From a virus, in IMG/VR virus record IMGVR_UViG_3300047392_000337, positions 1 through 43,771 of that record: 43,771 nucleotides of DNA. One strand, written 5' to 3'. The stretch's first letter is position 1. The number at the start of each line of letters is the position of its first letter. The notes below the pieces were generated by a model. The model searched no databases. It saw only the letters and a program-made list of their open reading frames with translations, and had not been told where the DNA came from. Of this stretch, positions 4,350 to 29,052 are shown one piece after another. A program made the position numbers and the translations under genes.

Positions 4350-5015
4350 TTAATCTTCTAAATCAACAAATTTAGAAACATTTACATTGCCATTTTTTAC
4401 TTCATACTGTGGCGCTCTAAGCTCAAATGCTCGCTGCTCTTGAACGGTTGGATTCTTTGGATCAACTGCGCCCATATCTTTATAAAAAGCACGATTTTTA
4501 ATAAGGAATACACTAGCCATAGCTCTTGTACCAGAGTCTACTTGGTTTACTCCATGCCTTACTTTATATCCAAAAATAACTATGCTACCCTTTTTTGGTT
4601 TAATAGTAACATCATAATCTGGGAAAAATATTTCCCCTCCCTCGTATTCTTCTGGGTCACATAGATAAGCTAAAATAGTTGCAGTAACCTGTTCATATGT
4701 TCCGTCTGGCATGGCTGCAAAGTCGGTGTGAGGTCCGTAGCCATCTCCTGCCCCACGCTTATAAAGAAAAGTTCTTTGTGCTACCTTATGCTTAGACGGA
4801 TCTAAAGATTCATGGTTTTTGTACCAAATATCCAAGCACTTAAAGATTGCTTCGTCTGTTTGTTCTAAGTAATCTTTTGTTGGCAACATGGTAGTGACCA
4901 TGTATTCTTGATTTGGGTTTGGGCCCCAGTCATCAAAAGAATTTAAAAATTCATCGGCATTATCTATTGCGTCTTCAAAATACCATACTTCATCAGAAAG
5001 CTTAATTGGATTCAT
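4350..5015 (-). CDS. 2OG-Fe(II) oxygenase, prolyl-4-hydroxylase-like (copy 2)
   Basis: 221 aa from ATG 5015. The frame extends to 5051, but that would overlap the glutathione peroxidase more, and GGAT sits upstream of 5015. Ligands: H96 and D98 (PHTDF), H154 (VRHGV), R164 (GTRAM), and the EEYEGGEIFFP strand typical of P4H-like enzymes. It overlaps the peroxidase gene by 14 bases (ATGAATCCAATTAA), so the two are translationally coupled. Substrate unknown. Confidence 0.9.
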   Translation of the reverse strand: MNPIKLSDEVWYFEDAIDNADEFLNSFDDWGPNPNQEYMVTTMLPTKDYLEQTDEAIFKCLDIWYKNHESLDPSKHKVAQRTFLYKRGAGDGYGPHTDFAAMPDGTYEQVTATILAYLCDPEEYEGGEIFFPDYDVTIKPKKGSIVIFGYKVRHGVNQVDSGTRAMASVFLIKNRAFYKDMGAVDPKNPTVQEQRAFELRAPQYEVKNGNVNVSKFVDLED

Positions 5016-5481
5016 TTTTAATATCCAAAATTTCTGACACAGAGATATCAATTTTTTCTGGTGTAATGTCAGGGGCTAAAGCATAAAACTCATCTTCATT
5101 AACCAAGAACTTAGTAAAGTTCCATGGAATTACATTAAAGTCTGCTCTATCAACTAAATACTTAAATAAAGGATGAGCATCTGGACCATTTACTTCTACC
5201 TTTTCAGCTATGATAAACTCTACCCCGTAATTTGTCTGGCAGAATTCTTTGATCTCTGCGTTTGTTCCAGGCTCCTGCCCTCCAAATTGATTACATGGGA
5301 AACCAATTACAACCAAACCCTTATCTGCATACTTCTTATGAAGATCCTGTAGTCCCTTGTATTGCAATGTAAATCCGCACTTGCTTGCAACGTTGACAAT
5401 TAGCAATAGCTTATCCTTAAAGTTAGACAAATCTACATTATTTCCATTGTTATCTGTAAAGCTATAATCATATACTGACAT
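5002..5481 (-). CDS. Glutathione peroxidase-type thiol peroxidase
   Basis: 159 aa from ATG 5481 with AAAGGA upstream (an upstream in-frame ATG at 5505 has no ribosome site). The catalytic tetrad is visible: Cys in NVASKCGFT, Gln in FGGQEPG, Trp and Asn in IPWNFTKF. A second Cys in EFCQTNYGVEF matches the resolving Cys of thioredoxin-dependent members. It reduces peroxides to water or alcohols in the cytoplasm. The thioredoxin at 15674-15976 is a plausible electron donor. Full family length, no truncation. An auxiliary gene in a phage. Confidence 0.92.
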   Translation of the reverse strand: MSVYDYSFTDNNGNNVDLSNFKDKLLLIVNVASKCGFTLQYKGLQDLHKKYADKGLVVIGFPCNQFGGQEPGTNAEIKEFCQTNYGVEFIIAEKVEVNGPDAHPLFKYLVDRADFNVIPWNFTKFLVNEDEFYALAPDITPEKIDISVSEILDIKNESN

Positions 5482-5522
5482 GGGGGTCCTTTCAAATAAA
5501 AACATTGTGTTTATATAACATA

Positions 5523-7693: not shown

Positions 7694-8206
7694 TTAAGCT
7701 GAAAGTATCTTTGCTAATGCGTTGATTGTTGCTGCAATTCTTCCGATATCACGCAATTGCTCAACTGTATAGCCTTCTTCCTTCAACGTCTCGTAATGTG
7801 CTTTGACACAAAAGTGGCATTTGCCAATAATAGAAGAAGCTAAAGAATATGCCTCAAACTTTGCTTTTGTTGTTCCGCCGTGAGATGCAATGGCATTCAT
7901 TCTTAATTGAGCTGGCAAGCCTTTAAGATTTACATCATCTGCCATTTCAATAAATGGATACCAAACATTATTTTGTGCCATGATTGCTCCAGCTGTAAGA
8001 GCCGCATTTTTTTCAACCTCATTCGTAGCATTTGCAACAATGAATGCAAGCAACTTAGAATTTCCAGTAGAAAAAGCTGCTGCTATTGAAAGATAGGTGG
8101 CATGCTCTGGATCAATGGCAGACCTATTAATTACTACATCAAGATTTAGCTTGATATCCTTTGCATACTCTGGTAAAGAGTCCTTTAGCTGGTCAACCCA
8201 TGACAT
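7694..8206 (-). CDS. ahpD: Alkylhydroperoxidase AhpD
   Basis: 170 aa, full family length, with an N-terminus (LKDSLPEYAKDIKLNL) very like mycobacterial AhpD. The redox site is KCHFC with His three residues after the second Cys (VKAH) and the relay Glu in FEAYSLA. In the M. tuberculosis protein, as I recall it, the His lies just before the second Cys. Here that place is Phe and His follows the first Cys. AhpD is the disulfide adaptor that reduces AhpC, and the two genes overlap here as TAATG, so the pair is complete and coupled. Confidence 0.93.
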   Translation of the reverse strand: MSWVDQLKDSLPEYAKDIKLNLDVVINRSAIDPEHATYLSIAAAFSTGNSKLLAFIVANATNEVEKNAALTAGAIMAQNNVWYPFIEMADDVNLKGLPAQLRMNAIASHGGTTKAKFEAYSLASSIIGKCHFCVKAHYETLKEEGYTVEQLRDIGRIAATINALAKILSA

Positions 8207-8742
8207 TATAGAGTTTCTCCGCCCAATGATCGATTACATGCACAAAGCTCACCTGTTTGAAGAGCATCTAGAACACGAAGAGTTTCATCTGGGTTTCGAC
8301 CAACATCTAGATTGTTTACAGTAACATGCTGAATAATATTATCTGGATCAATAATAAATGTAGCACGGTATGTAACGCCAGATGGGTGATGAACGCCAAG
8401 ATCATTAGCAAGTTGGTGCCCTGTGTCTGCGAATGACCATGAATTTGTTTTCTTAAGATCTTCATGGGCATTACGCCATGCAATCTTACAGAACTCATTA
8501 TCTACAGACCCAGTCATAAGTACTGCATCTCGATCATTAAAATCATTTACAAGTTTATCATATGCAACAATTTCAGTTGGGCATACAAATGTAAAATCCT
8601 TTGGGTAAAAAGCGATAATCTTCCATTTCCCTGGGAAAGAGTCTTGATTTAATACTTCAAAAGAACTGTCCTCATAGCTTAGTGCCCCTGGCTTTACGCC
8701 AGTAACTGCAAAGCTACCTAACTTATCTCCTACTGTCTTCAT
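8206..8742 (-). CDS. ahpC: Alkyl hydroperoxide reductase AhpC (2-Cys peroxiredoxin)
   Basis: 178 aa from ATG 8742, behind AAGGAGAAAA. A frame open to 8832 would run through a tRNA. Peroxidatic Cys in FYPKDFTFVCPTE, and C-terminal ELCAC with two resolving cysteines as in mycobacterial AhpC. It reduces alkyl peroxides, H2O2 and peroxynitrite. It lies 32 bases after tRNA-Lys, so it is probably read from the tRNA promoter. Together with ahpD this is a whole actinobacterial-type peroxide system in a phage. Confidence 0.95.
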   Translation of the reverse strand: MKTVGDKLGSFAVTGVKPGALSYEDSSFEVLNQDSFPGKWKIIAFYPKDFTFVCPTEIVAYDKLVNDFNDRDAVLMTGSVDNEFCKIAWRNAHEDLKKTNSWSFADTGHQLANDLGVHHPSGVTYRATFIIDPDNIIQHVTVNNLDVGRNPDETLRVLDALQTGELCACNRSLGGETL

Positions 8743-8774
8743 TTTTCTCCTTATATATAAGTGGGAATAACCCG

Positions 8775-8847
8775 TGCCCCCAGATGGTCTCGAACCATCG
8801 ACCCGCAGATTAAAAGTCTGCTGCTCTACCAACTGAGCTATAGGAGC
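8775..8847 (-). tRNA. tRNA-Lys (anticodon TTT)
   Basis: Full cloverleaf: GCTCCTA acceptor with GU-containing partner TGGGGGC, loop CTTTTAA, T-arm GGTTCGAGACC. Class I variable loop. CCA is not encoded. Last tRNA of the array, directly upstream of ahpC. Confidence 0.95.
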
Positions 8848-8888
8848 GTTAAAAACATAATATATTATAAAAATAAAACTGTCAATAG

Positions 8889-8959
8889 CTTCTCCCCTAG
8901 GACTCGAACCTAGATTGCTGGTGCCAAAAACCAGAGTCCTGCCATTGGACGAAGGAGAA
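8889..8959 (-). tRNA. tRNA-Gln (anticodon TTG)
   Basis: Acceptor TTCTCCT/GGGAGAA, anticodon stem CTGGT/ACCAG with loop TTTTGGC, T-arm CTAGG/CCTAG. Discriminator G. CCA not encoded. Four bases from tRNA-Ser. Confidence 0.93.
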
Positions 8960-8963
8960 ACAG

Positions 8964-9046
8964 CGGAAACAATAGGATTCGAACCTATGGATCTTTCAAT
9001 CTACGATTTAGCAAACCGTTGCATTCGACCACTCTGCCATGTTTCC
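8964..9046 (-). tRNA. tRNA-Ser (anticodon GCT)
   Basis: Acceptor GGAAACA/TGTTTCC, anticodon loop TTGCTAA, long variable arm as expected for Ser, T-arm ATAGGTTCGAATCCTAT. 83 bases, CCA not encoded. Confidence 0.95.
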
Positions 9047-9211
9047 TGGTGTCGGGTCAGTTTATAGATTCTACACTGTAAGGCCTTTACTCCGAGTGCC
9101 CCGACGACACTAGTACAGTAGGCTCCTAGTTGCCCCTGTATCTTGCGTAAACAGTCAACGTTCTGTTTAGTAGCTAACTAAACTATATACTGCAATACAA
9201 GAGGTTCCCTG
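9047..9211 (-). other. Structured spacer in the tRNA array (Trp to Ser)
   Basis: 165 bases without a gene. On the minus strand it can form CCTC(T)TGTAT with ATACAGGGG, a 7-bp hairpin GTTTAGT/ACTAAAC, an alternative AAACAG/CTGTTT, and GTCGGG with CCCGAC next to ACCA. The last element looks like a tRNA acceptor with CCA, but the roughly 59-base span between lacks a T-loop. It could be a processing element, a small RNA or a decayed tRNA. Confidence 0.45.
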
Positions 9212-9282
9212 CGCCGTTTCTAGGAGTCGAACCTAGGCTCACCGCTTTGGAGACGGTAGTGCTTCCGTAACACTTAAACGAC
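9212..9282 (-). tRNA. tRNA-Trp (anticodon CCA)
   Basis: Acceptor GTCGTTT/AAACGGC, anticodon stem ACCGT/GCGGT with loop CTCCAAA, T-arm CTAGG/CCTAG. 71 bases, discriminator G, no encoded CCA. Confidence 0.93.
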
Positions 9283-9407
9283 ATGTGATTAATAAGTCTA
9301 CGAGCAGACTAACTTATTAATCTGATATATGAGGATTTACATAAGCCCGTTGTCCTCCAGTTGTCCCCGTCGGGAGTCGGTCTTACCGCAACTCAACCTT
9401 AATATCG
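9283..9407 (-). other. Structured spacer in the tRNA array (Leu to Trp)
   Basis: 125 bases. A perfect 11-bp inverted repeat (GATTAATAAGT at 9287-9297, ACTTATTAATC at 9312-9322) abuts the 5' end of tRNA-Trp. An alternative inner stem AGTCT/AGACT shares its bases. Upstream, GGACAAC is repeated near GGGG/CCCC tracts. No coding frame or tRNA. Confidence 0.45.
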
Positions 9408-9481
9408 TGCATCAAGTAGGACTCGAACCTACAACCATCAGTTCCTAAGACTGACGCCTCTACCAGTTGGGCTATTGACGC
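9408..9481 (-). tRNA. tRNA with anticodon TAG (Leu), class I body
   Basis: Good cloverleaf: acceptor GCGTCAA/TTGATGC, anticodon stem TCAGT/ACTGA, loop CTTAGGA (anticodon TAG, reads CTA), T-arm GTAGG/CCTAC. The variable loop is only five bases (TGGTT). Bacterial tRNA-Leu normally has a long variable arm, as the other Leu tRNA at 19889-19972 does, so its charging is uncertain. Confidence 0.85.
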
Positions 9482-9650
9482 AATGCCAGCCACGGCTTTG
9501 GTTCTTAACCTAAACCACCTGCTGGCTGTTATACCTAGTCACGACCGCAGAGCAATCTCCATCGGCCTGAACGCCTTCGTATGATGCAGGTGACAGTGTA
9601 AGTTTCAGTATAACTATCTACATATAGATTGTTCAGACCTATACTTCGAG
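9482..9650 (-). other. Structured spacer in the tRNA array (Gly to Leu)
   Basis: 169 bases. Near the tRNA-Leu end, nested stems GCCAGC/GCTGGC, GGTTT/AAAGCC and GGTT-AAG-AACC stack into a hairpin of about 45 bases. Further upstream AGTATA/TATACT encloses ATCTA-TATG-TAGAT, and GTCAC pairs with GTGAC. No TTCGA-type T-loop, so not a standard tRNA. Possibly a small RNA or maturation signal. Confidence 0.45.
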
Positions 9651-9721
9651 AGCGGATGATGAGAATCGAACTCACCCCTTCTGCTTGGAAGGCAGAGGCA
9701 CTACCAATATGCAACATCCGC
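9651..9721 (-). tRNA. tRNA-Gly (anticodon TCC)
   Basis: Acceptor GCGGATG/CATCCGC, anticodon stem TCTGC/GCAGA with loop CTTCCAA, T-arm with GTTCGATTC. Discriminator T, no encoded CCA. Four bases after tRNA-Asn. Confidence 0.94.
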
Positions 9722-9725
9722 ATCG

Positions 9726-9798
9726 CTGCCCCACCTGGCCTCGATCCAGGGACATCCGAATTAACAGTTCGGCGCTCTACCAACTGAGCTATGGGGCA
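9726..9798 (-). tRNA. tRNA-Asn (anticodon GTT)
   Basis: Acceptor TGCCCCA/TGGGGCA, anticodon stem CCGAA/TTCGG with loop CTGTTAA, T-arm CCTGGATCGAGGCCAGG. First tRNA of the array, 13 bases after the -10 box. Confidence 0.95.
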
Positions 9799-9842: not shown

Positions 9843-10061
9843 CTACTTATCTTTTAATCTTGTCCATTTGCCATATTTATTTGGTTCTTTACTGCCAACG
9901 TACTCTTGACCTGTTTCTAAATCAATTAGTAGCCATTTTTCAGGTGCTTTAGTATGCACTGTTAGGTCAACGGCATAATCAAGCTCTTCTATTTCTACCC
10001 CTTGATACATTCTAGGTAAAAACGGATAAGCATTATCTAAAAGTTTTCTAAATTTTTTCAT
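9843..10061 (-). CDS. Conserved phage protein, 72 aa
   Basis: C-terminal half WLLIDLETGQEYVGSKEP..YGKWTRL matches a widespread small domain of phage proteins with WxLID..TGQ.Y.G....G.W.RL. Function unknown. It overlaps the PLP enzyme's stop by four bases and is the last gene of that operon. Confidence 0.7.
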   Translation of the reverse strand: MKKFRKLLDNAYPFLPRMYQGVEIEELDYAVDLTVHTKAPEKWLLIDLETGQEYVGSKEPNKYGKWTRLKDK

Positions 10062-11107
10062 GATTCCAATGCGTACTTAATATCATTCCATAAATCTTCT
10101 GGGTCTTCGCAACCAACAGAAAATCTAATTAAGTTTTCTGGAACTAATGGACTTTCAAGTGCCCATCTTCTTCTTCTTTCCCAGAGAGATTCAACCCCGC
10201 CAAGGCTAGTGGCATTTGCAATTAACCTAGAAGACGAGCATATATTTTCTGCTCCTGCTGCATCTGTATTAACCTCAAATGAGATCATTGCTCCAAATCC
10301 TGGGTAATAAACTTTAGATACCATTGGGTGATCTGATATTTTTTTAAGCAATACCTTAGCATTAGCTTGTGCTTTTTCAAATCTAATCGGAAATGTTCTA
10401 ATGCCTCTTAAAGCTAAATAAGCATCAAACGCCTGAAGTATGGTACCGCTGATTTTTCTTGAAAATTCTATTTGATTAAATAATTCTCCATTATTACTAG
10501 AAATAGACCCACATAAAACATCACTGTGGCCAGCCATATATTTTGTAACAGAATTCATAGAAATATCTGCACCCATTTTAAGAGGTTGCTGGAACAAAGG
10601 TGTAGCAAATGTATTGTCTACTCCTACAAACGTCCCCTGGGCCTTGCAAGCTCTTACTAATGCATCTATGTCAGCTACATCAAGTCTTGGATTTGTTGGC
10701 GTTTCTAGCCATAGCATATAAGCGCCATCTAACTCTGACAAAACTTCAGCTGTGTTAGATATATCAACAAATTTGGCAATTAATTTGCCTTGATCTTGCA
10801 TTTGTTTAAGGGTTGCATTGACTCCAGCGTATCCTTGATTAGATGCTATTATAATAGAGCCCATTGGTATATTGTCAAACACAGCTTTTATTGCTGACAT
10901 CCCTGAATTAAATACTAAAGTTTTTCCGCCTTCTAATTTTCCTATTACTTCTTCTAATGACGCTGCCGTGTCATTGCCATATCTTGAATACCCAATATCT
11001 CCTCCAGCATGAAATGTAGAGTTTAAAGAAACTGGAGTATTGATTGGGCCATCATTACTTGGCTTGGGTCTTCCGCTTGAGACTGCTATAGTATATGGGC
11101 TTGTCAT
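10058..11107 (-). CDS. PLP-dependent cystathionine gamma-lyase/synthase family enzyme
   Basis: 349 aa, slightly shorter than the usual 380-400. YSRYGNDT, NSGMSAIKAV, ETPTNPRLDVADI, VDNTFATP and the Schiff-base lysine K189 in SVTKYMAGHSD define the Cys/Met-metabolism PLP family. The end (GGVESLWERRRRW...IRFSVGCEDPEDLW) resembles actinobacterial cystathionine gamma-lyases, so host origin is likely. Possible reactions are cystathionine cleavage to cysteine or synthesis from O-acyl-homoserine. Residues alone do not decide. AGGATAAAA precedes the ATG. It follows a run of Cys-rich mini-genes and a radical SAM gene, so thiol supply to them is conceivable. Confidence 0.9.
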   Translation of the reverse strand: MTSPYTIAVSSGRPKPSNDGPINTPVSLNSTFHAGGDIGYSRYGNDTAASLEEVIGKLEGGKTLVFNSGMSAIKAVFDNIPMGSIIIASNQGYAGVNATLKQMQDQGKLIAKFVDISNTAEVLSELDGAYMLWLETPTNPRLDVADIDALVRACKAQGTFVGVDNTFATPLFQQPLKMGADISMNSVTKYMAGHSDVLCGSISSNNGELFNQIEFSRKISGTILQAFDAYLALRGIRTFPIRFEKAQANAKVLLKKISDHPMVSKVYYPGFGAMISFEVNTDAAGAENICSSSRLIANATSLGGVESLWERRRRWALESPLVPENLIRFSVGCEDPEDLWNDIKYALES

Positions 11108-11120
11108 TTTTATCCTATAA

Positions 11121-11210
11121 TTAAATAAAAGGTAGATCTAATATTTTATCTACCGCATCGTCAATTGTAGGTGCATGCTCCTTAGAGCATGCACCACAAT
11201 CTTTACACAT
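11121..11210 (-). CDS. 29-aa Cys-rich mini-protein (MCxxCGAC)
   Basis: ATG 11210 overlaps the upstream TAA as TAATG. Starts MCKDCGACSKEH, three cysteines in the first eight residues, then an acidic helix. It resembles the MCxxCGC starts of two neighbours. The middle of the gene is also a perfect 11-bp hairpin (11170-11195), so the segment might act as RNA instead. Confidence 0.5.
   Translation of the reverse strand: MCKDCGACSKEHAPTIDDAVDKILDLPFI
11170..11195. repeat. Perfect 11-bp inverted repeat inside a mini-gene
   Basis: GGTGCATGCTC, four-base loop, GAGCATGCACC. A very stable hairpin between the Cys-rich mini-genes and the PLP enzyme. No T-run follows on either strand, so it is not a simple terminator. 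Candidate RNA-processing or translation-control site. Confidence 0.7.
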
Positions 11211-11398
11211 TATATTTTCTTTCGTCCTGTTTTTTTAGGTGGTCTTGGAGTTGTATTAAGCTCACGTCTAATGCCGTGTCTATTAATATCTGTCTTTAAC
11301 CCCTGTCTAGGATTTTTTCTTGTTACCTCACGACTTGTTACAGCTCCTGCTGCAGCTCCGTTAGGCGGTGGTGTTGTACCTGTTCCGTCCATTGACAT
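11210..11398 (-). CDS. 62-aa basic, Pro/Thr-rich disordered protein
   Basis: Low-complexity N-terminus (GTGTTPPPNGAAAGAV) and basic tail (RPPKKTGRKK). TAATG overlap at both ends places it firmly in the operon. Could bind nucleic acid. No family recognised. Confidence 0.6.
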   Translation of the reverse strand: MSMDGTGTTPPPNGAAAGAVTSREVTRKNPRQGLKTDINRHGIRRELNTTPRPPKKTGRKKI

Positions 11399-11604
11399 TA
11401 ATCTATGTCCTCTCCCATTGGCCCTTTTGGCTCTGACATTTCGTGAGCTAGACCCTCTTCAGTTTCTGATCCAAGTGTATTCATAGAATCAGTTCCAAAC
11501 ATTATTTGGGAAGCTAGTTGTCCTGGGCCAACATCAAAAACATTTTGATTTGGCATTGCAGCACCCATAAAATCTTTGCTGCCACATCCACACATATCGC
11601 ACAT
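11398..11604 (-). CDS. 68-aa protein with N-terminal MCxxCGCG metal motif
   Basis: Begins MCDMCGCGSKDF: C2, C5 and C7 have the spacing of the N-terminal nickel site of HypB (MCTTCGCG), but no GTPase domain follows. The rest is Gly/Met/Glu-rich and probably unstructured. TAATG overlaps on both sides. Metal or thiol binding is inference. Confidence 0.65.
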   Translation of the reverse strand: MCDMCGCGSKDFMGAAMPNQNVFDVGPGQLASQIMFGTDSMNTLGSETEEGLAHEMSEPKGPMGEDID

Positions 11605-11744
11605 TAGTTACAGTTCTCGCAATCTTTAACTGCACAAGGTGAGTCGCCTCTTGTATCTCTTGTGCATTCAGCTTTAACAATAGTTGGCTTTGCAACTACT
11701 GGCTGTGCTGGTGCAGAAGGCTCGTTGTTATCAAAAATACCCAT
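11604..11744 (-). CDS. 46-aa protein with Cys-rich C-terminus
   Basis: Pro/Ala-rich N-terminus, then four cysteines in the last 20 residues (ECTRDTRG, PCAVKDCENCN). Stop overlaps the next start (TAATG). The layout, with leader-like start and Cys-rich end next to a radical SAM gene, recalls a modified-peptide precursor but could equally be a small zinc protein. Confidence 0.55.
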   Translation of the reverse strand: MGIFDNNEPSAPAQPVVAKPTIVKAECTRDTRGDSPCAVKDCENCN

Positions 11745-11747
11745 TTT

Positions 11748-11894
11748 TTACTTTGGCCCCTGTGCTGATGCCTGGTTAGAAACATCTGATGCAGCGTTTG
11801 CTGATCCTGGTGCTGCAGCATACTGCTCACCAATTGTGTGCTGTACTGCTGGCTTTACTTCATTAAATCCTGTTAAGTTCAATCCGTCTGTCAT
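11748..11894 (-). CDS. 48-aa Ala/Ser/Gln-rich small protein
   Basis: GGAG ribosome site before ATG 11894. No Cys. Contains TIGEQYAAAPGSANAASDVSNQ and ends QGPK. A mini-protein two genes upstream of the radical SAM gene's neighbour set (13169-13312) also ends KGPK. Unknown function. Confidence 0.6.
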   Translation of the reverse strand: MTDGLNLTGFNEVKPAVQHTIGEQYAAAPGSANAASDVSNQASAQGPK

Positions 11895-11940
11895 TTTATT
11901 ACTCCTATAGGTCGTTATTTAAGTAGTTCTAGAAATCTAC

Positions 11941-12042
11941 TCATTGTTCTATTATACCATCTGGTTGATTAGAATCTGAATCTTTATCATCTCTTTCATT
12001 ACCTAAGCCAACATGATCAGCACAACCGCATAGCCAGCACAT
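11941..12042 (-). CDS. 33-aa protein with N-terminal MCxxCGC metal motif
   Basis: Begins MCWLCGCADHVGLG (C2, C5, C7 plus a nearby His) and ends in a very acidic tail. ATG overlaps the radical SAM stop (TAATG), so the two are translationally coupled. Same N-terminal Cys spacing as the 68-aa protein at 11398. Candidate metal-binding partner or substrate of the radical SAM protein. Confidence 0.6.
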   Translation of the reverse strand: MCWLCGCADHVGLGNERDDKDSDSNQPDGIIEQ

Positions 12043-13043
12043 TATTTGCCCCAAATAGCCGCTGAGCAGCTCTTACACATATTGGAATAAGCCTCTTCAA
12101 CCATGTCTAGCCTTTCCTTGCTATGCCATATATCTTTTATTGATTTTTTAAAAACATTTCCATATACAGTTTCAAAATCATAGTCTGCACAACATATAAA
12201 TAGATCCCCATTTGGATTTATATGAACCCACTCGTTAGTCCTACTTCTAATTCCTAAACCACCGTTGCATCCAATAACCCTATCGCCATTAGGCATGAGG
12301 TATTTTTCAATTGCTGGGCCTTGCGTCATTACTCTATGAGTTTCTAGGTGTGCTGCCCTATCATATAAATGATGAGCAGTGCTTATGCTTAGTGTTGGAA
12401 ATATTGTTTTAAATCTATCATATTCTTTAGATAGGCTACCAGATTGAACATCTAAATCTACAATTGGAGCATTTTCTAGTAAATTAAGCCAGCCTCCATT
12501 TTCAGTTAAAGATAAATCATTTATGCCATTAATCATTAAATGAATAAATATTGGCTTATCTAGCTTATTATTTTCTTCTATAAAATACTTTACATTATCA
12601 ATGACTTTATTAAAAAGTTTAACATTCATATTTACGTATCTTGACCAAGTATCTGGATCAGAAGATGGAATATTTAGTAGAATACCTTGGATAGAATCAC
12701 GGTGTTTGATTAAAATTTCTGTTTTATCTTTAGTTAAATTTACTCCATTAGTTAATATATTAGTTTTAAAGTTATACTTAGAGTATAAGTCCATCATAGC
12801 ATCAAATTCTTTATACAGTAAAACTTCATTATAATTAGCAGAATAAACAATAGACAGCTCTGGATCGACAAAGTCGCCTTTGCCCTCTGTTAGCTGAATA
12901 AAAATATTTTCTATTTCTGATAAAGGCATGTCCCTTATTGCTGATTTTGGGTTGCCTGCATATGCAACTGGACAAAACCAACATGAAGAATTGCACAGCC
13001 CATTAACATCAAGCTGCACTGCTTTTATCATATATTTATTCAT
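12042..13043 (-). CDS. Radical SAM enzyme with SPASM-like C-terminal Cys cluster
   Basis: 333 aa. The 4Fe-4S cluster motif CxxxCxxC is C17, C21, C24 (LCNSSCWFC). The TIM-barrel part includes NILTNGVNL. The C-terminal part has GCNGGLGI, ICCADYDFETVYGN and CKSC, an arrangement like SPASM domains that hold extra clusters and often act on peptides. It lies in an operon of tiny Cys-rich proteins with TAATG overlaps on both sides. The substrate cannot be read. A peptide or protein target is a reasonable guess. Confidence 0.88.
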   Translation of the reverse strand: MNKYMIKAVQLDVNGLCNSSCWFCPVAYAGNPKSAIRDMPLSEIENIFIQLTEGKGDFVDPELSIVYSANYNEVLLYKEFDAMMDLYSKYNFKTNILTNGVNLTKDKTEILIKHRDSIQGILLNIPSSDPDTWSRYVNMNVKLFNKVIDNVKYFIEENNKLDKPIFIHLMINGINDLSLTENGGWLNLLENAPIVDLDVQSGSLSKEYDRFKTIFPTLSISTAHHLYDRAAHLETHRVMTQGPAIEKYLMPNGDRVIGCNGGLGIRSRTNEWVHINPNGDLFICCADYDFETVYGNVFKKSIKDIWHSKERLDMVEEAYSNMCKSCSAAIWGK

Positions 13044-13165
13044 TAGCTTTTATATAATTTCTGATAGCAATCTGCACACATGTCTATAATGCCAGATTCT
13101 GGTAAGCTGCCTATTCTGGAAGCTTTACCCCTACAGTCTTTTACTTCACATAAATCACTAAACAT
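13043..13165 (-). CDS. 40-aa zinc-finger-like mini-protein
   Basis: Four cysteines: LCEVKDC near the start and MCADC near the end, a likely zinc site. Its TAA overlaps the radical SAM ATG. Unknown function. Confidence 0.6.
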   Translation of the reverse strand: MFSDLCEVKDCRGKASRIGSLPESGIIDMCADCYQKLYKS

Positions 13166-13168
13166 GTA

Positions 13169-13312
13169 TTACTTTGGTCCCTTTGCAACTTGTCCTCTAT
13201 ATCCAGTTTTCTTTTTATTCATTGATCCTGGCTTTTTATAACCCGCTCCGTTTGGTGTGGCAGCTTGACGCTGCTCTAAAGCTTTTGCAATTTTATCGTG
13301 ATGTTTTCCCAT
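13169..13312 (-). CDS. 47-aa basic mini-protein
   Basis: Lys/Gly-rich (KKPGSMNKKKTGYRGQVAKGPK), TAATG overlap with the DUF2061 gene. Resembles small nucleic-acid-binding or virion proteins but has no recognised family. Confidence 0.6.
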   Translation of the reverse strand: MGKHHDKIAKALEQRQAATPNGAGYKKPGSMNKKKTGYRGQVAKGPK

Positions 13313-13530
13313 TATTTTACCTTACTTCCAAATTTGGCCCAAGCTCTTTCATGTAAGAAAAAGCCAATCATTTCACAAATAGTATAAAGAACTGCAAACC
13401 CACCAGCGTACTCCCAATGAGCTTCCCCAGTAATAGCTTTTTCAAAAAAATAAACTAATGTGCCTACAAATGACATATGCACTACTGGCCAAGTTACAGC
13501 TTTATACAGACTTCTTTTACTTGATTCCAT
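13312..13530 (-). CDS. DUF2061-like membrane protein (copy 1)
   Basis: 72 aa, two hydrophobic segments (about 12-30 and 42-58) and the HERxW signature (FFLHERAWAKFG). DUF2061 proteins are small inner-membrane proteins of unknown role. A second, more canonical copy is at 24814-25032. Confidence 0.8.
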   Translation of the reverse strand: MESSKRSLYKAVTWPVVHMSFVGTLVYFFEKAITGEAHWEYAGGFAVLYTICEMIGFFLHERAWAKFGSKVK

Positions 13531-13531
13531 T

Positions 13532-14314
13532 TTATTCCCCCATCATTTCTTTTATTAAATAATGTATTGAAACTACATTATCGTCTTCTGGATGTGGGCT
13601 AATTAAAAGATCAGTAGCCCCCAATTCCTTTAATGATCTTAACTGATCTTTAACGCTATCTTTACTTCCGTATATAGTCCATTGATCAGACCCCACGCTT
13701 TTAGACAACATATTGTTTACAGTTTCGGGAGAGTCATTAATGATAACGCTTAAAGAAAGCATTTGCTTCTTATTACGCAAAAATGAACTGCTATTTATTG
13801 CCTGCTTATGCATATTTAGCATAGCAAGATGTGTGGCATTATATTTTTCAGCCATTAATTTCGTTTCATTAGAATGCCCACCCATTACTATTTCTGAAAC
13901 TGTATTATTAGATAGCTCTAAAAATTTAGATAACCACTCATCTGTATATTTTAAACGCTTTTCTGGTGTATCCAGCTTATCTTTTAGCCATATTAAATCT
14001 TCAATTGAATTTTCATCTTTATGTATGTCGCCAGACACAACATTAAGCATTAGTCTATTTGGAGCTATGCTATAAAAAGCTTTACAAATCATTGCACAAT
14101 ACTCTGGGCTAATAGCATAAGTTCTAATGGCTGGCATATACTTAAACTTATGGTTTAAATCTAAAGCTCTGGCTGCTTTAATCCAGTTATCATCTATCTT
14201 AGAGTGATACACCAATAGAACTGATTCGTAGCCAAACTCATCTACAATATTAGATACATTTTTAAGATGGGAAATACTTGTATCTCCGCCTCTTTCCATC
14301 CAATGAAATCTCAT
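13532..14314 (-). CDS. Luciferase-like flavin monooxygenase (SsuD-related), short form
   Basis: 260 aa against roughly 340-380 for alkanesulfonate monooxygenase. The N-terminus MRFHWMERGGDTS, KYMPAIRTYAISPE and NRLMLNVVSGD are the SsuD/LLM signatures of the flavin-binding barrel, and a distinct C-terminal part (WTIYGSKDSVKDQL...LGATDLLIS) is also typical. SsuD uses FMNH2 and O2 to release sulfite from sulfonates. This one may do so or act on another substrate, and its shorter length speaks for caution. First gene of the radical SAM/PLP operon, leaderless start. Confidence 0.85.
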   Translation of the reverse strand: MRFHWMERGGDTSISHLKNVSNIVDEFGYESVLLVYHSKIDDNWIKAARALDLNHKFKYMPAIRTYAISPEYCAMICKAFYSIAPNRLMLNVVSGDIHKDENSIEDLIWLKDKLDTPEKRLKYTDEWLSKFLELSNNTVSEIVMGGHSNETKLMAEKYNATHLAMLNMHKQAINSSSFLRNKKQMLSLSVIINDSPETVNNMLSKSVGSDQWTIYGSKDSVKDQLRSLKELGATDLLISPHPEDDNVVSIHYLIKEMMGE

Positions 14315-15512: not shown

Positions 15513-15683
15513 TTAGTGTAGTTCTATTACTTTTACATGAAACGAACACGGATCCCCGCCTTTATCCCATTCTTGCATTTCTTCATCTGACATTGGAGGG
15601 CCATCATGTGTATCACAGAAAACATCTGATATCCATCCTTTATCAAATCCAAATCTCATCCACGCATCAAAATCTAGATCCAT
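15513..15683 (-). CDS. Conserved small phage protein, 56 aa
   Basis: Contains WISDVFCDTHDGPPM and GGDPCSFHVKV, two conserved Cys and two His, a pattern I know from hypothetical proteins of actinophages. Its ATG overlaps the thioredoxin stop by ten bases. Confidence 0.7.
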   Translation of the reverse strand: MDLDFDAWMRFGFDKGWISDVFCDTHDGPPMSDEEMQEWDKGGDPCSFHVKVIELH

Positions 15684-15976
15684 TCTGAAAGCTCCTCAAG
15701 CATTATATGCTTAGGCTTTGCCCCTGTAATTGTTTTGACTGGTTGACCAGATTTAAATAATATCATGGTTGGGATAGTCTTTACATCAAATTCATCCGAT
15801 TTTGCAGGATTCTCATCAACATTTAACTTTCCAACCCATAATCCACGCTCATCAGATATTTCATCTAGGATAGGAGACACCTTTTTGCATGGTCCACACC
15901 AAGGGGCCCAGAAATCAATTAAGACTAAGTCATGTGATTCGATTACTGTGTTAAAGTTTTCGTCTGTTACTAACAT
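15674..15976 (-). CDS. Thioredoxin
   Basis: 100 aa with the WCGPC active site, the Asp/Lys environment (DFWAPWCGPCKK) and cis-proline TIPTMI, full thioredoxin fold length. It reduces disulfides in the cytoplasm and could recycle the phage glutathione peroxidase. AAGGAG before ATG, TAATG overlap with the upstream gene. Confidence 0.95.
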   Translation of the reverse strand: MLVTDENFNTVIESHDLVLIDFWAPWCGPCKKVSPILDEISDERGLWVGKLNVDENPAKSDEFDVKTIPTMILFKSGQPVKTITGAKPKHIMLEELSEWI

Positions 15977-16182
15977 TATTCTCCTTGCAAAGCTTCCGCT
16001 GCTGCATTAAATTTATTCATAAAAGTTTGAATAACCCATAAAGCTGTTTCTCCAGCATTCTTAGACATTGCCTCAGATGCTTCTGGAGTACGATCTTCTT
16101 CTGCCAAACCGTTATACCATTTTTGATAGAGCTCAATTCCAATATCTTGAATAATTCCTTCTAGTACAGTTGTCTTATCCAC
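15976..16182 (-). CDS. Conserved hypothetical protein, 68 aa
   Basis: GTG start at 16182 behind AAGGGGG, overlapping the protease stop by eight bases. Helical, with ELYQKWYNGLAEEDRTPEASEAMSKNAG. No known function. Coupled to thioredoxin. Confidence 0.65.
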   Translation of the reverse strand: MDKTTVLEGIIQDIGIELYQKWYNGLAEEDRTPEASEAMSKNAGETALWVIQTFMNKFNAAAEALQGE

Positions 16183-17122
16183 GAGTAACCCCCTTAATAG
16201 TAGAAGACTGAATGTCTACAAGAGACAAAAGCTTAGGAAACTTTCCCTGTCTACCAGTTGTTGAAACTGCAATAGACTTTAGCTTATCAATAAGCTTCTG
16301 TCCACTATATCCAAATTTTGTAGTTGCATCAATATACTTAGCTGCTGCAACTTGTGTGGCAGAAGAAGTACCTGCAATATTTTTAGAAATATTGCCTGGA
16401 CCAACAGCTTGCAAATTACCTAGGGCAAAGAAATCTAGTAAAACTGGATCATTATTGCTATATGAAGTAATTTCACCAATCTGATCTACCGCTCCAACTG
16501 CAACCACATCTGGGATACATGAGGGCCAATCAATTCTTGAGTAATCACGTGCATTACCAACTGCTGAAAATACTGGGATAGACATTGACATAAGAGACTG
16601 AACTGCTGAAATTGTTCTAGGGAAAGTTGGGCAATACTGTGTACCAGCTTTACCTAGCATTCCGCTGCTTCCCTGTGACATTGATACTGCCTTTACATTG
16701 TACTTTGCAGCATTATCTCTTACCCATGCTAATGCTGCAGAAATAGTTGATTCTCCAGTAGGCTTTCTCAAACCAGCAGCAGTATTACCAATGATCTTAA
16801 CAAAAAGAATCTTAAGATTTGGATTATTGTTAACTGCAGTAGTAGCCATAAAAGTTCCATGGTCAAAGCCGTTAAGATTGATTAGATTTGCTGGCATAGA
16901 TGCAGCACCAGCCCCTTCTTGAAAGTTAGTACTATTTGGACAAAGAGCCCACTCAAGAATGCAAACTTCTCCTACAATCTTGCCTTGAAGACTTGGGACT
17001 GTTGTATCGATTGCTGTATCTAGAATAGCTAGAACTGGTGCATCTGCACCAGATGCCTGCGAAATTGCTACAGGTGATAGAAGTGATAAAGTAAGTACCG
17101 CCGTTATTAGTTTATTGTTCAT
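16175..17122 (-). CDS. Secreted subtilisin-like serine protease
   Basis: 315 aa. Signal peptide 1-27 (ALA/GLY end QASGADA). Catalytic triad D35 (LAILDTAID), H88 (GFDHGTFMA), S253 (GTSSATQ), oxyanion N190 (SAVGN). There is no long propeptide. Four cysteines may form disulfides outside the cell. A secreted subtilase in a phage is unusual. With the surface-like protein at 14382 and thioredoxin in the same operon region, processing of envelope or surface proteins is a reasonable guess. Leaderless start. Confidence 0.92.
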   Translation of the reverse strand: MNNKLITAVLTLSLLSPVAISQASGADAPVLAILDTAIDTTVPSLQGKIVGEVCILEWALCPNSTNFQEGAGAASMPANLINLNGFDHGTFMATTAVNNNPNLKILFVKIIGNTAAGLRKPTGESTISAALAWVRDNAAKYNVKAVSMSQGSSGMLGKAGTQYCPTFPRTISAVQSLMSMSIPVFSAVGNARDYSRIDWPSCIPDVVAVGAVDQIGEITSYSNNDPVLLDFFALGNLQAVGPGNISKNIAGTSSATQVAAAKYIDATTKFGYSGQKLIDKLKSIAVSTTGRQGKFPKLLSLVDIQSSTIKGVTRG

Positions 17123-17308: not shown

Positions 17309-17681
17309 TATTTGCCCTATCTATTGGTGTTGGTGCAGTTGCCAAACTTCCGCATTGCAGGCACTCCATATCTAAAAAGTAATTAGATATTTCATAGTCT
17401 GAGAAAGTTACTTTCAAAAGCCAAACTTGGGAGCCACATGGGCATGCATGAGTAGGTGTTCCTCTTAGATCCATTGCTTTATCATAGTCAATAGGTGGGA
17501 TGTAGTTTGGATCGCTTTGAACTATTGACATTATGGCGTCTTGAACTGCTTCTTCGTACTTGTCTATATAATAAAAACCAACTTTGAACCTTTTGAAAAA
17601 CATCCTCAAAAAGAAAGACAGTAGCACTATGCTAGTTATTAAAGACAAGATGAATGCAATTTTCATATTATCATTATACAT
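17295..17681 (-). CDS. Membrane-anchored protein with CxC...CLQC metal site
   Basis: 128 aa from ATG 17681 (TAATG overlap). A second start, Met6 at 17666, lies six bases after TATAAT and could be used from its own promoter. One N-terminal transmembrane helix (IAFILSLITSIVLLSFFLRMFF), then a cytoplasmic part with THACPCGSQVW and MECLQCGS, a zinc-ribbon-like site. Unknown function. It follows the proteasome-like gene. Confidence 0.7.
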   Translation of the reverse strand: MYNDNMKIAFILSLITSIVLLSFFLRMFFKRFKVGFYYIDKYEEAVQDAIMSIVQSDPNYIPPIDYDKAMDLRGTPTHACPCGSQVWLLKVTFSDYEISNYFLDMECLQCGSLATAPTPIDRANSEEF

Positions 17682-17701
17682 TAAATTTGAATGTATGTAT
17701 A
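17673..17701 (-). promoter_or_regulatory. Possible internal promoter for a leaderless start at 17666
   Basis: TATACA (17701-17696), 17 bases, TATAAT (17678-17673), six bases, ATG 17666. It overlaps the end of the upstream coding region. Confidence 0.5.
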
Positions 17702-18238
17702 GGGTGCAGCTACGCTCATATTGAATTCAGTTGCTGCTTCCAATGCTGCTTTTATTCTAAGCTTAGGGTTCTTTTGATTTTTAGTAGCATGAAGTGCACC
17801 TAAAGCTAACTGGCCACCGCTTCCTTCTGCCATATAATTAAACACACTTTCTCCAACGTGAAAGTCTTCATCTATAGTAAAGATTCTACCTTCTACTCCA
17901 ACTATAAAAATACCGCCAGTATCTTCATCTGAAGAAGATCCAATACTGCCATAACCACCGTCTTTAAATGCTTGTTTAACTGAATCTATGAACTTGGTTC
18001 TCATGAACTTATCTAGTCCAGAATTAGTTTTAGTTGGTGTGTACTTTGGAGGATTCCATGAGTACTGAAGGATCTGGCCCATTCTGAATGAATCCGTAAA
18101 AGCAATTCCATACTGACCAACTTTAAAACACTTGGGTTCTTTTCTTGATATGATCCACCCAGTTTTATCATCTGATGCGGCGTGATCGGAACCCATATAT
18201 ACAGTCCCATTTTGGGCAATAGCAACTATGCATGTCAT
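17681..18238 (-). CDS. Proteasome beta-subunit-like Ntn hydrolase
   Basis: 185 aa. After Met comes Thr2 (MTCIVAIAQNGTVYMGSDHAAS), the expected N-terminal nucleophile once Met is removed. Then KCFKVGQYGIAF, FRMGQ, GIFIVGVEGRIFTID and GSGGQLALGALHA match the 20S proteasome beta/HslV fold. No partner ATPase is seen. Possible roles are a self-compartment protease, processing of phage proteins, or modulation of the host actinobacterial proteasome. Leaderless promoter upstream. Confidence 0.85.
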   Translation of the reverse strand: MTCIVAIAQNGTVYMGSDHAASDDKTGWIISRKEPKCFKVGQYGIAFTDSFRMGQILQYSWNPPKYTPTKTNSGLDKFMRTKFIDSVKQAFKDGGYGSIGSSSDEDTGGIFIVGVEGRIFTIDEDFHVGESVFNYMAEGSGGQLALGALHATKNQKNPKLRIKAALEAATEFNMSVAAPYTYIQI

Positions 18239-19872: not shown

Positions 19873-19888
19873 TCTATTTCCTATCTAG

Positions 19889-19972
19889 TACCCATAGTCG
19901 GATTTGAACCGACACTCCAGTGTTGGAGGCAAATTTTAAGTCTGCTGCGTCTGCCGATTCCGCCATACGGGC
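19889..19972 (-). tRNA. tRNA-Leu (anticodon TAA)
   Basis: 84 bases with a normal long variable arm (CTCCAACACTGGAG), acceptor GCCCGTA/TATGGGT, anticodon stem GCAGA/TTTGC with loop CTTAAAA. CCA not encoded. First element of the whiB transcript. Confidence 0.95.
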
Positions 19973-26272: not shown

Positions 26273-27289
26273 TTAAATTCTACTTCCTGATTCTTTCATT
26301 GACTGTGGAGAAACCTTTATGTACTCCACTGTATCCTGCAAGCCCTTAATATTATCTGATCCAGCATAAGTAAAAGCGCTTCTAACATTATTAAGTATAT
26401 TATAAATTCCTTGCAAAGCTGGTCCTTTAGGGCTTACCTCGCCAGTAACTCCCTCAAAACTAATTATAACATTATCTTTTTTATCAATATTTCTTTCTTT
26501 AAGAATGTATTCTTTTGAAGCTAAACCGCTTAAATAATATTTGCCATCCACACTATCACATTCATCGTGGCCAGCTAACATAGATCCTAGCATTACTGCG
26601 CTAGCGCCTGCACCTAAAGCCTTTACAATGTCTCCAGAATTTTTAATTCCTCCATCTGCAATTATGCCATTTACAGGATCATTTTTTACATAATCATATA
26701 TGCTCATTACAGAACTAAGTGTTGGTGCCCCAAAGCCCGTCATTACTCTAGTAGTACAGGCAGCCCCTCCGCCAATTCCAACTCTAACAGAATCAGCTCC
26801 TGAATCCATTAACATTTTATATGCACCATATGAAGATACATTACCGCACATTATATGCAAACTATTTGGAACCATTTTTCGTAAATCAGAAATTGCATCT
26901 GCTACTAACTTTAAATGACCATTGGCCACATCTAAAAGTATAATCTTAATGCCACTTGATACAATTTTATCAATAGACGACCCGTCATAAATATCTGCAA
27001 TATTTATTGAAACTCCAACTCTATTAAAATTTATATCAATAGACTTTTTAATTTTTGTATCTATGCTCTCTGATCTACATGTCATTCCTATAGAACCAGC
27101 TTCACTTATAGCGCTTAACATTGCATAAGATGATATAGACTCCATTGGAGCAGAAATTATTGGGTTGTATAACTCCAATATACCTTCTGGGTTATTTGGA
27201 TTGCCAATTTTTATAGAAAGGTCAATTTTAGATCTACTCAATATTGGTGATTTGTCATGAGGCATTAACAAGATGTCATCAAAGCACAA
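26273..27289 (-). CDS. IMP dehydrogenase / GMP reductase family enzyme
   Basis: 338 aa, no CBS domains. Active-site loop GIGGGAACTTRVMTGFGAPTLSSV with catalytic Cys-Thr, and IIADGGIKNSGDIVKALGAGASAVMLGSMLAG for phosphate binding. The short form without CBS favours GMP reductase, but the reaction is not certain. The TTG start at 27289 leaves out part of the usual GLxFDDxLL block. An ATT codon at 27298 behind AAAGAG would restore it (see findings). Confidence 0.85.
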   Translation of the reverse strand: MCFDDILLMPHDKSPILSRSKIDLSIKIGNPNNPEGILELYNPIISAPMESISSYAMLSAISEAGSIGMTCRSESIDTKIKKSIDINFNRVGVSINIADIYDGSSIDKIVSSGIKIILLDVANGHLKLVADAISDLRKMVPNSLHIMCGNVSSYGAYKMLMDSGADSVRVGIGGGAACTTRVMTGFGAPTLSSVMSIYDYVKNDPVNGIIADGGIKNSGDIVKALGAGASAVMLGSMLAGHDECDSVDGKYYLSGLASKEYILKERNIDKKDNVIISFEGVTGEVSPKGPALQGIYNILNNVRSAFTYAGSDNIKGLQDTVEYIKVSPQSMKESGSRI

Positions 27290-27927: not shown

Positions 27928-28398
27928 TCAGTCCTTTAGTGATTTCCATGGATTTGGTGGCAATTTTAGACTTGACTCTAAGTACCAATTCCATTCTTTA
28001 TGTTTTTTAGTTGCTGCATTTAAATGTTCAAGCAATGCAAATTCTTTTTGTATAAAAGCTTGCTCTGATAAAACCTTTAAGTCCTCAATAATTTTTTTAT
28101 TAATAGGTACCAAATGCATTGCCATCTCAACTCCGCAGTATGTGTCTGGTTTTACATTACCAAGCGTTTGATGATATGAAAACTCTTCTATTGTATAAGG
28201 AGCTTCTTCTCCAAGTCTTCTTAGCCATAAAGAAGTTTCCAGCAATAGCTCATCCGCAGACAAATAAATTTCTTTATATACTATTTGAGACTGTCTCATC
28301 AATACAGACTCGGTATTAAGCCAAAACCCTTTAACGAGATTAGTAAACACAAAAGAGTTAGCCTGAAATGCCTTTAAAGAATTAATTAAATGTTTCAT
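27928..28398 (-). CDS. Degenerate Dps-like ferritin paralogue
   Basis: 156 aa from ATG 28398, which aligns with the start of the neighbouring Dps; a TTG at 28407 is also open. It shares LKxxQANS and EAPYTIEEF with that protein, but HWN is FWLN, the second His is Gln, and DAIAE is LLLET, so the ferroxidase ligands are gone. Could be a structural subunit or a neofunctionalised copy. Confidence 0.75.
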   Translation of the reverse strand: MKHLINSLKAFQANSFVFTNLVKGFWLNTESVLMRQSQIVYKEIYLSADELLLETSLWLRRLGEEAPYTIEEFSYHQTLGNVKPDTYCGVEMAMHLVPINKKIIEDLKVLSEQAFIQKEFALLEHLNAATKKHKEWNWYLESSLKLPPNPWKSLKD

Positions 28399-28408
28399 CG
28401 TTCCCAAC

Positions 28409-28858
28409 TTAATTTATAGTTGATTTAATACTAGATTTTAGCCACCATGACCAAAATTGTAATTTGTCTTGTCTATCTGCGACAAAGTTTGCTAATCCCT
28501 GCTGTTTAGCAGACGTTGATTGATCAAAAATAATTATTAAATCCGCCTGCATTTTTTCAATCATATCTAAAAGCTGTTTTGACATTGCAATTGGAGAGTT
28601 AGAATCTAATTGAACATCACCATAAGTATTGTTAGCTGTAAATTCTTCTAAAGTGTAAGGTGCTTTTGCATCAAATTTTCTGATCCATTCTGCAATTGCA
28701 TCTATTGTGCCATATACATCTGAGTATATTTCTTCAAAAAAGGCATGGTACTGTGTGAACAATGGCCCTTCTACATTCCAGTGGAATCCATGTGCTGTGC
28801 TGTAAAGAACAACTGAATTTGCCTGAAGTTTTTTTAAAGCTGCTATTAATTCCATCAT
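28409..28858 (-). CDS. dps: Dps family ferritin-like protein
   Basis: 149 aa. Ferroxidase ligands intact: GFHWNVEGPLF (His), QYHAFFEEIY (His, Glu), TIDAIAEWI (Asp, Glu), then APYTLEEF. Dps shells oxidise Fe(II) with H2O2, store iron and may coat DNA. In a phage it could protect the genome or starve Fenton chemistry. No Lys-rich DNA-binding tail. Leaderless start with TATACT. Confidence 0.88.
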   Translation of the reverse strand: MMELIAALKKLQANSVVLYSTAHGFHWNVEGPLFTQYHAFFEEIYSDVYGTIDAIAEWIRKFDAKAPYTLEEFTANNTYGDVQLDSNSPIAMSKQLLDMIEKMQADLIIIFDQSTSAKQQGLANFVADRQDKLQFWSWWLKSSIKSTIN

Positions 28859-28870: not shown

Positions 28871-28901
28871 CCATTTCTTTTAAATAATTGCTAATTTACC
28901 G

Positions 28902-28974
28902 TGCCTTTGGCAGGAGTCGAACCTGCGACCTTACGGGTAGAAACCGTTTGCTCTGTCCTCTGAGCTACAAAGGC
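28902..28974 (-). tRNA. tRNA-Arg (anticodon TCT)
   Basis: Acceptor GCCTTTG/CAAAGGC, anticodon loop TTTCTAC, T-arm GCAGGTTCGACTCCTGC. 73 bases, CCA not encoded. Four bases after tRNA-Met. Confidence 0.94.
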
Positions 28975-28978
28975 GTAG

Positions 28979-29052
28979 TGTGCCAGGTAGGACTTGAACC
29001 TACGATTACCGAATTATGAGTTCGGGGCTTTAACCAACTAAGCTACTGGCAC
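28979..29052 (-). tRNA. tRNA with anticodon CAT (Met, or Ile if modified)
   Basis: Acceptor GTGCCAG/CTGGCAC, anticodon stem CCGAA/TTCGG, loop CTCATAA, T-arm GTAGGTTCAAGTCCTAC. Not an initiator by its first pair (G-C). Its first 23 bases also encode the C-terminus of the carbamoyltransferase. Confidence 0.92.

Follow-up and report, generated by a model that had tools for sequence, protein, structure and literature searches.

What does a radical S-adenosylmethionine (SAM) enzyme do in a phage genome, and on which of the small proteins encoded around it, if any, does it act? The question is raised by a locus at positions 10058–14314 of IMG/VR record IMGVR_UViG_3300047392_000337, a viral record of 43.8 kb (43,771 nucleotides; this whole stretch, as analysed, is called the window here). 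Its minus-strand series of genes runs as follows: a luciferase-like gene, DUF2061, m47, m40, the radical SAM gene (rSAM), mC33, m48, mC46, mC68, m62, mC29, a gene for a pyridoxal-phosphate (PLP) enzyme, and m72. The original prediction read these genes as one coupled operon in which a peptide enzyme, a flavin monooxygenase and a thiol-metabolism enzyme serve a string of tiny Cys-rich proteins. The open reading frames (ORFs) that it named are all present, on the minus strand and in the order given, and four of the six minis behind rSAM are indeed Cys-rich. The comparisons below point to a smaller functional unit, i.e., a phage cassette made up of a twitch-type rSAM and a single peptide of 23–34 residues, mC33; a PLP enzyme resembling cystathionine lyases is often present as well. 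The members are:

12042..13043, minus strand: rSAM, putative twitch-type radical SAM enzyme of 333 aa, module core (PF04055, PF13186, CNSSCWFC and five invariant Cys)
11941..12042, minus strand: mC33, 33 aa, module core (linkage to rSAM; selection on the head)
10058..11107, minus strand: PLP-dependent Cys/Met-metabolism enzyme of 349 aa, resembling cystathionine gamma-lyase, often the third member (PF01053)

The pairing of rSAM with mC33 carries the argument. In pattern scans covering 2.9 million viral contigs, MCWxCGCxxH was found in 46 contigs and MCWxCGCADH in 45, and rSAM is present in all of them. A profile of rSAM identified 48 viral contigs, 46 of which have an intact mC33. That is, a conserved short peptide gene lies beside a putative modifying enzyme, as expected for ribosomally synthesized and post-translationally modified peptides (RiPPs). 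The predicted peptide-modification locus thus survives as an enzyme-plus-peptide module for mC33; the string of substrates does not. mC33 is located directly behind rSAM or behind the PLP gene, the gene orders seen being rSAM-mC33, rSAM-PLP-mC33 and rSAM-mC33-PLP. The observed basis for the module is this co-occurrence and adjacency, together with selection on the mC33 head and the independence of the other minis, both taken up below. Records may be fragments, and absences are strong in aggregate only. No cellular relatives came from a scan of genome contigs with the rSAM alignment, and the mC33 pattern was found among cellular sequences in just one HypB and an apparent chance frame. A scan of 398 genomes of one phylum, run without a positive control, gave no relatives, and annotated phages and plasmids gave distant rSAM matches only (20–23% identity).

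The surroundings of the pair are informative. In most loci that lack rSAM and have both m40 and m48, these two genes are 71–86 nt apart, mostly about 75–80 nt (146–166 nt in the others), and the empty m40/m48 junction can be read directly. The same gap in the window measures 1148 nt and is filled by rSAM and mC33. On this comparison of sequences, rSAM and mC33 are a cassette set into the m40/m48 junction. By the same reckoning the junction is a cargo site, because other viruses hold different genes there, either a 2-oxoglutarate (2OG)-oxygenase-like gene or a gene of 84 aa (L154, L232, L220, L183 and L225). About ten relatives show an alternative context, in which a TylF-like methyltransferase gene lies upstream of rSAM, no genes of the mini-gene island are found in the fetched flanks, and mC33 is present in all but one (L106). 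rSAM and mC33 therefore stay paired in two unrelated gene contexts, and their recurrence in a different, island-free one indicates that the pair moves as one unit.

The PLP gene is found in 14 of 25 rSAM records vs none of 19 rSAM-less records; the thiol-metabolism enzyme of the original prediction does travel with rSAM. Its product matches Cys_Met_Meta_PP (PF01053; E 9e-83, 278 bits) and contains the catalytic Lys motif, TKYMAGHSD. It scores 293.6 bits against the PRK07582 cystathionine gamma-lyase equivalog, below the curated cut-off of 440. Like actinobacterial cystathionine gamma-lyases of the PRK07582 type, it gives a full-length match with TKYxxGHSD and the PLP-site residues; unlike them, it is 349 aa long, falls below the equivalog cut-off and is tied to a phage radical SAM gene, and its substrate is putative. 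The trees of the PLP enzyme and of rSAM are in conflict: the PLP enzymes of L009, L017 and L027 cluster with those of L044 and L046, whereas their rSAMs cluster with that of the window, and L104 has an rSAM of the L058 type but a PLP enzyme and mC33 of the L025 type. The label noPLP that L022 and L060 bear in the trees is a contig-end artefact, as the start of a PLP gene is present in both. Because the two trees disagree, the PLP gene appears to have joined, or been swapped among, rSAM phages repeatedly, i.e., more than once.

The peptide mC33, MCWLCGCADHVGLGNERDDKDSDSNQPDGIIEQ, begins MCWLCGCADHVGLGN and has 33 residues counted from an ATG; its start overlaps the rSAM stop. Among relatives its length varies from 23 to 41 aa, with natural forms as short as 23–25 aa (e.g., MCWICGCADHVGPGNEKEDKDEE). 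Nine positions are invariant: M1, C2, W3, C5, G6, C7, A8, H10 and G12. Over 31 distinct nucleotide heads, synonymous variation (pS) is 0.84 and nonsynonymous variation (pN) 0.086. Thus, there is strong protein-level selection on the first ~15 codons, MCWxCGCADHxGxGN, and only there.

This head has the form of a known metal site. The nickel of E. coli HypB is bound by Cys2, Cys5, Cys7 and the amino terminus with a subpicomolar Kd (PMC7055735), and an Azohydromonas HypB starts with MCVVCGCADH, the same form as the mC33 head. The match of the head to the HypB family NF053667 is weak (E 0.012). mC33 shares with HypB the N-terminal MCxxCGC site, with its three Cys at the extreme N-terminus; unlike HypB, it is free-standing, lacks a GTPase domain, has Trp3 and GxGN fixed, and is strictly linked to the gene of a radical SAM enzyme. 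The occurrence of the head in rSAM-free peptides, and its fusion to a 2OG-Fe(II) oxygenase, suggest that MCxxCG(C) is a general metal-handling module. The fusions (L018:1848-2564 and L034:2488 onward) carry an MCxxCGC head and occupy the site at which mC29 and then a distinct oxygenase gene are found in other phages.

Two roles for mC33 may be considered: it may be what the enzyme modifies, the reading that we prefer, or it may be a helper, i.e., a small protein that carries metal, Fe-S or electrons and activates rSAM, in which case the target of rSAM would be something else, either a protein of phage or host origin or a small molecule. We think the helper role unlikely. It would account for the HypB-like head, and for the common occurrence of MCxxCG heads in these phages where rSAM is absent, one of them on the oxygenase just described. 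However, the fixed Trp3 and ADHxGxGN, which are confined to the rSAM-linked peptide and missing from the other MCxxCG peptides of these phages, exceed a metal site, and we know of no general need of radical SAM enzymes for a peptide like mC33.

Turning to the enzyme, membership of the radical SAM superfamily is indicated by the CxxxCxxC cluster motif, CNSSCWFC, and by PF04055 (E 8.8e-9, 36.2 bits against a cut-off of 29.5). Five further Cys, at 259, 284, 285, 323 and 326, are invariant. The SPASM-like Cys cluster that had been predicted is reflected in a PF13186 match above the cut-off (E 2e-11), but the pattern of the Cys looks like that of a one-cluster twitch. The chain ends soon after Cys326, and its C-terminal pattern is limited to CX19GX4C and a closing CX2C. 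The seven-Cys pattern of a two-auxiliary-cluster SPASM domain, with its Cx2-4Cx5Cx2-3C stretch, is not found in rSAM despite the PF13186 match, whereas the C-terminal Cys present (C259, C284/C285, C323 and C326) are enough for one auxiliary cluster. The C-terminal domain thus fits a twitch rather than a full SPASM domain, as these are defined (PMC9012708).

Does this enzyme modify mC33 within the infected cell? We judge the matter about evenly balanced. Beyond the linkage of the two genes and the selection on the head, the peptide maturases SuiB, SkfB and ChlB are among the structural neighbours of rSAM. Several observations weigh against the proposal. The nearest solved sequence is that of BtrN, a small-molecule enzyme (E 2e-7). 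Structural matching, done with an AlphaFold model of pLDDT 74 whose catalytic loops are poor, ties SuiB, SkfB and ChlB with the small-molecule enzymes BtrN and DesII, so that the substrate class is not separable by the modelled structure. No RiPP recognition element (RRE) was found in rSAM by Pfam, and mC33 has no obvious leader. Two rSAM contigs do without an intact peptide: in L105 the mC33 head is lost and the promoter-coding tail alone remains, and in L106 there is not a single MCxxCGC gene. Finally, the PLP gene is absent from 11 of 25 rSAM records, part of which are fragments. Many radical SAM enzymes function without an RRE, a leader peptidase or an exporter.

The BtrN and DesII matches would suit a small-molecule enzyme, a dehydrogenase or deaminase of the BtrN/DesII kind that takes part in, e.g., virion glycan or nucleotide decoration, with mC33 linked but separate. 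The TylF-like methyltransferase upstream in several relatives would also suit such a role, which we nevertheless consider quite improbable, as the methyltransferase is missing from loci of the window type and mC33 follows rSAM across contexts. BtrN itself, a radical SAM dehydrogenase of the twitch type that acts in butirosin biosynthesis, shares a CNxxCWxCP stretch with rSAM; it differs in its length of about 250 aa vs 333, and in the window there is an mC33 partner and no aminocyclitol pathway is seen. No DNA hypermodification partner gene was seen in the ORF list of the window, on which no dedicated search was run.

If rSAM modifies mC33, a radical reaction might, e.g., form a cross-link of the thioether or carbon type or epimerise a residue, and the residue changed may be a Cys, Trp3 or Val/Ile11. 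The HypB-like head, with Cys2, Cys5 and Cys7, would become a fixed metal- or redox-active peptide, provided that it does bind metal. The PLP enzyme may be a source of cysteine or sulfide, both for the Cys-rich peptide and for the Fe-S clusters. No gene for a leader peptidase or exporter is conserved beside the rSAM-mC33 pair. Because the module lacks a conserved export or leader-processing gene, the product of mC33 probably works inside the cell. The host of the window virus is probably an actinobacterium, because the window contains a WhiB gene and because its terminase shares 62% identity with the one encoded by Streptomyces phages of the Stanwilliamsviridae. A wider proposal is more tentative, namely that actinobacterial phages encode an intracellular rSAM-matured metallopeptide of 23–34 residues, with a HypB-like head, an invariant Trp, a dedicated twitch enzyme and a cystathionine-lyase-like helper, that acts as a cofactor or host-manipulating agent and not as a secreted antibiotic.

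The twitch/SPASM peptide maturases SkfB, EpeE/YydG, SuiB and ChlB resemble the window enzyme in having a radical SAM barrel, a C-terminal auxiliary-cluster domain and an adjoining small peptide gene. In contrast, the window module is at most about 20% identical to them, has no leader/RRE, protease or exporter, has a peptide with an MCxxCGC head, and is phage-borne. A phage-borne radical SAM peptide-maturation pathway of this sort is not described in the literature that we searched. Were the enzyme to modify mC33, this would be a case of phage radical-SAM peptide maturation with a very small, defined substrate, a metal-site-like head and an apparently intracellular product. The natural short forms of 23–25 aa make the substrate idea directly testable.

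The remaining genes of the locus, and two non-coding elements among them, are as follows:

13532..14314, minus strand: luciferase-like monooxygenase (weak PF00296), rSAM-independent
13312..13530, minus strand: DUF2061 small membrane protein, island gene (PF09834)
13169..13312, minus strand: m47, island gene, found in rSAM-less loci too
13043..13165, minus strand: m40, small CxxC-containing protein, island gene at the left border of the cassette
11950..11972, minus strand: extended -10 promoter-like element, kept as non-coding DNA in rSAM-less loci
11921..11942, minus strand: leader stem-loop with a CUAG loop, 5′ of m48, whose stem covaries
11748..11894, minus strand: m48, island gene at the right border of the cassette
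11604..11744, minus strand: mC46, Cys-rich island gene, rSAM-independent, found in rSAM-less loci too
11398..11604, minus strand: mC68, MCDMCGCG peptide, in an island slot of the MCxECGC type in other viruses
11210..11398, minus strand: m62, basic island protein, rSAM-independent
11121..11210, minus strand: mC29, MCKDCGAC peptide, island gene, rSAM-independent

Of the domains originally named, DUF2061 (PF09834, E 6e-9), Radical_SAM and the Cys/Met PLP domain are recognized by Pfam, whereas the luciferase-like gene matches PF00296 below the cut-off (19.5 bits vs 27.9) and gives a partial match to TIGR03565, alkanesulfonate-monooxygenase-like. The mini-proteins scanned have no Pfam match and chance-level matches only in PHROGs, and those with MCxxCG heads match no family above chance in Pfam, PHROGs or NCBIfam. 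They are genes nonetheless, kept in relatives with median dN/dS values from 0.06 (m47, mC29) up to 0.46 (m48). Their MCxxCGC heads are non-random, with 37 matches across the records of 18 of 19 relatives and none for the reversed control pattern.

Is the whole string then a substrate? That rSAM, together with the monooxygenase, modifies all of these Cys-rich mini-proteins, as the original prediction implied, is very improbable. Several minis do adjoin rSAM and have the MCxxCG head. However, a scan for the island peptide MCxECGCE gave at least 120 matches, and among the matches listed are 104 newly found loci (L142–L245), none of which has rSAM, mC33 or the PLP gene. These 104 loci contain m62 (100), m48 (86), DUF2061 (62), m40 (57), mC29 (53), m47 (45), the luciferase-like gene (20) and mC46 (18). 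In 19 whole rSAM-less records, several near 110 kb, nothing matches the window rSAM or any PF04055 protein, in a search where four rSAM-bearing records do score. In the flanks fetched for about ten rSAM contigs, no minis of the island are present. Three of these contigs, viewed as whole records, have one MCxxCGC gene each, which is mC33. Island minis thus appear to be independent of rSAM, and rSAM to do without them. The preset check of whether rSAM homologues lack the minis therefore divides the list: mC33 is kept, whereas the remaining minis, along with DUF2061 and the luciferase-like gene, are found where rSAM is absent. The last of these is also missing from many rSAM loci, and the flavin monooxygenase falls out of the module.

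A promoter-like element divides the units as well. The C-terminus of mC33, DPNQLN[AD]II[DE], is encoded by CTAATCAACnnnATGnTATAATA, which contains a sigma-70-like extended -10 element, CTAATCAACCAGATGGTATAATA. Loci that lack rSAM conserve the element just as well, there as non-coding DNA, and the C-terminus was dropped as a conserved protein feature for that reason. In the stretch from the element to m48 there is a hairpin whose CUAG loop is invariant and whose stem has six pairs, followed by CCTATAGGAG; the Shine-Dalgarno sequence of m48 comes after the hairpin. The stem covaries: 100% of cells are paired, with two-sided changes in four of the six pairs, vs 29–61% paired in shifted controls. 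This test was run first on 19 hand-picked sequences and again on all distinct leaders, of which 77 of 79 form the six pairs. The hairpin matches no Rfam family. Because the promoter-like element, hairpin and Shine-Dalgarno sequence precede m48, the island from m48 onward is probably a separate transcription unit with its own promoter, and the locus is probably not one coupled operon.

The MCxxCG-headed mini-protein family, with m48, m62, m47, m40 and DUF2061 (window 9843-11894 and 13043-13530), is present, unannotated, in over 100 viral contigs behind this conserved element and covarying hairpin, and merits a study of its own.

A last reading, that mC33 imitates the HypB N-terminus and draws nickel from host hydrogenase maturation, with rSAM unrelated, is barely credible: MCxxCGCADH is the same in form as a bacterial HypB start, but the motif is short enough for convergence, the linkage to rSAM is left unexplained, and there is no evidence that the hosts use nickel hydrogenases.

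Other genes of the window may be noted. A peroxide/thiol-redox set (5002-5505, 7694-8832, 15674-15976 and 27928-28858) comprises glutathione peroxidase, AhpC-like, AhpD-like, thioredoxin and two Dps-like ferritins; a Dps-like ferritin gene adjoins rSAM in some relatives only, the window Dps genes being elsewhere. About 3 kb upstream lies the gene of a subtilase that appears to have a signal peptide (16175-17122). A second protein, encoded at 17681-18238, by eye has the look of a proteasome-type hydrolase, without a Pfam match; both are conserved beside the island in relatives. A QhpD-like cross-linking pathway of rSAM, subtilase and flavin monooxygenase was set aside, as the luciferase-like gene is not rSAM-linked. 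A carbamoyltransferase is encoded at 29030-30478, and a protein resembling IMP dehydrogenase/GMP reductase at 26273-27289. Ten tRNA genes are found (8774-9798, 19888-19972 and 28901-29052), seven of them grouped just downstream of the cassette.

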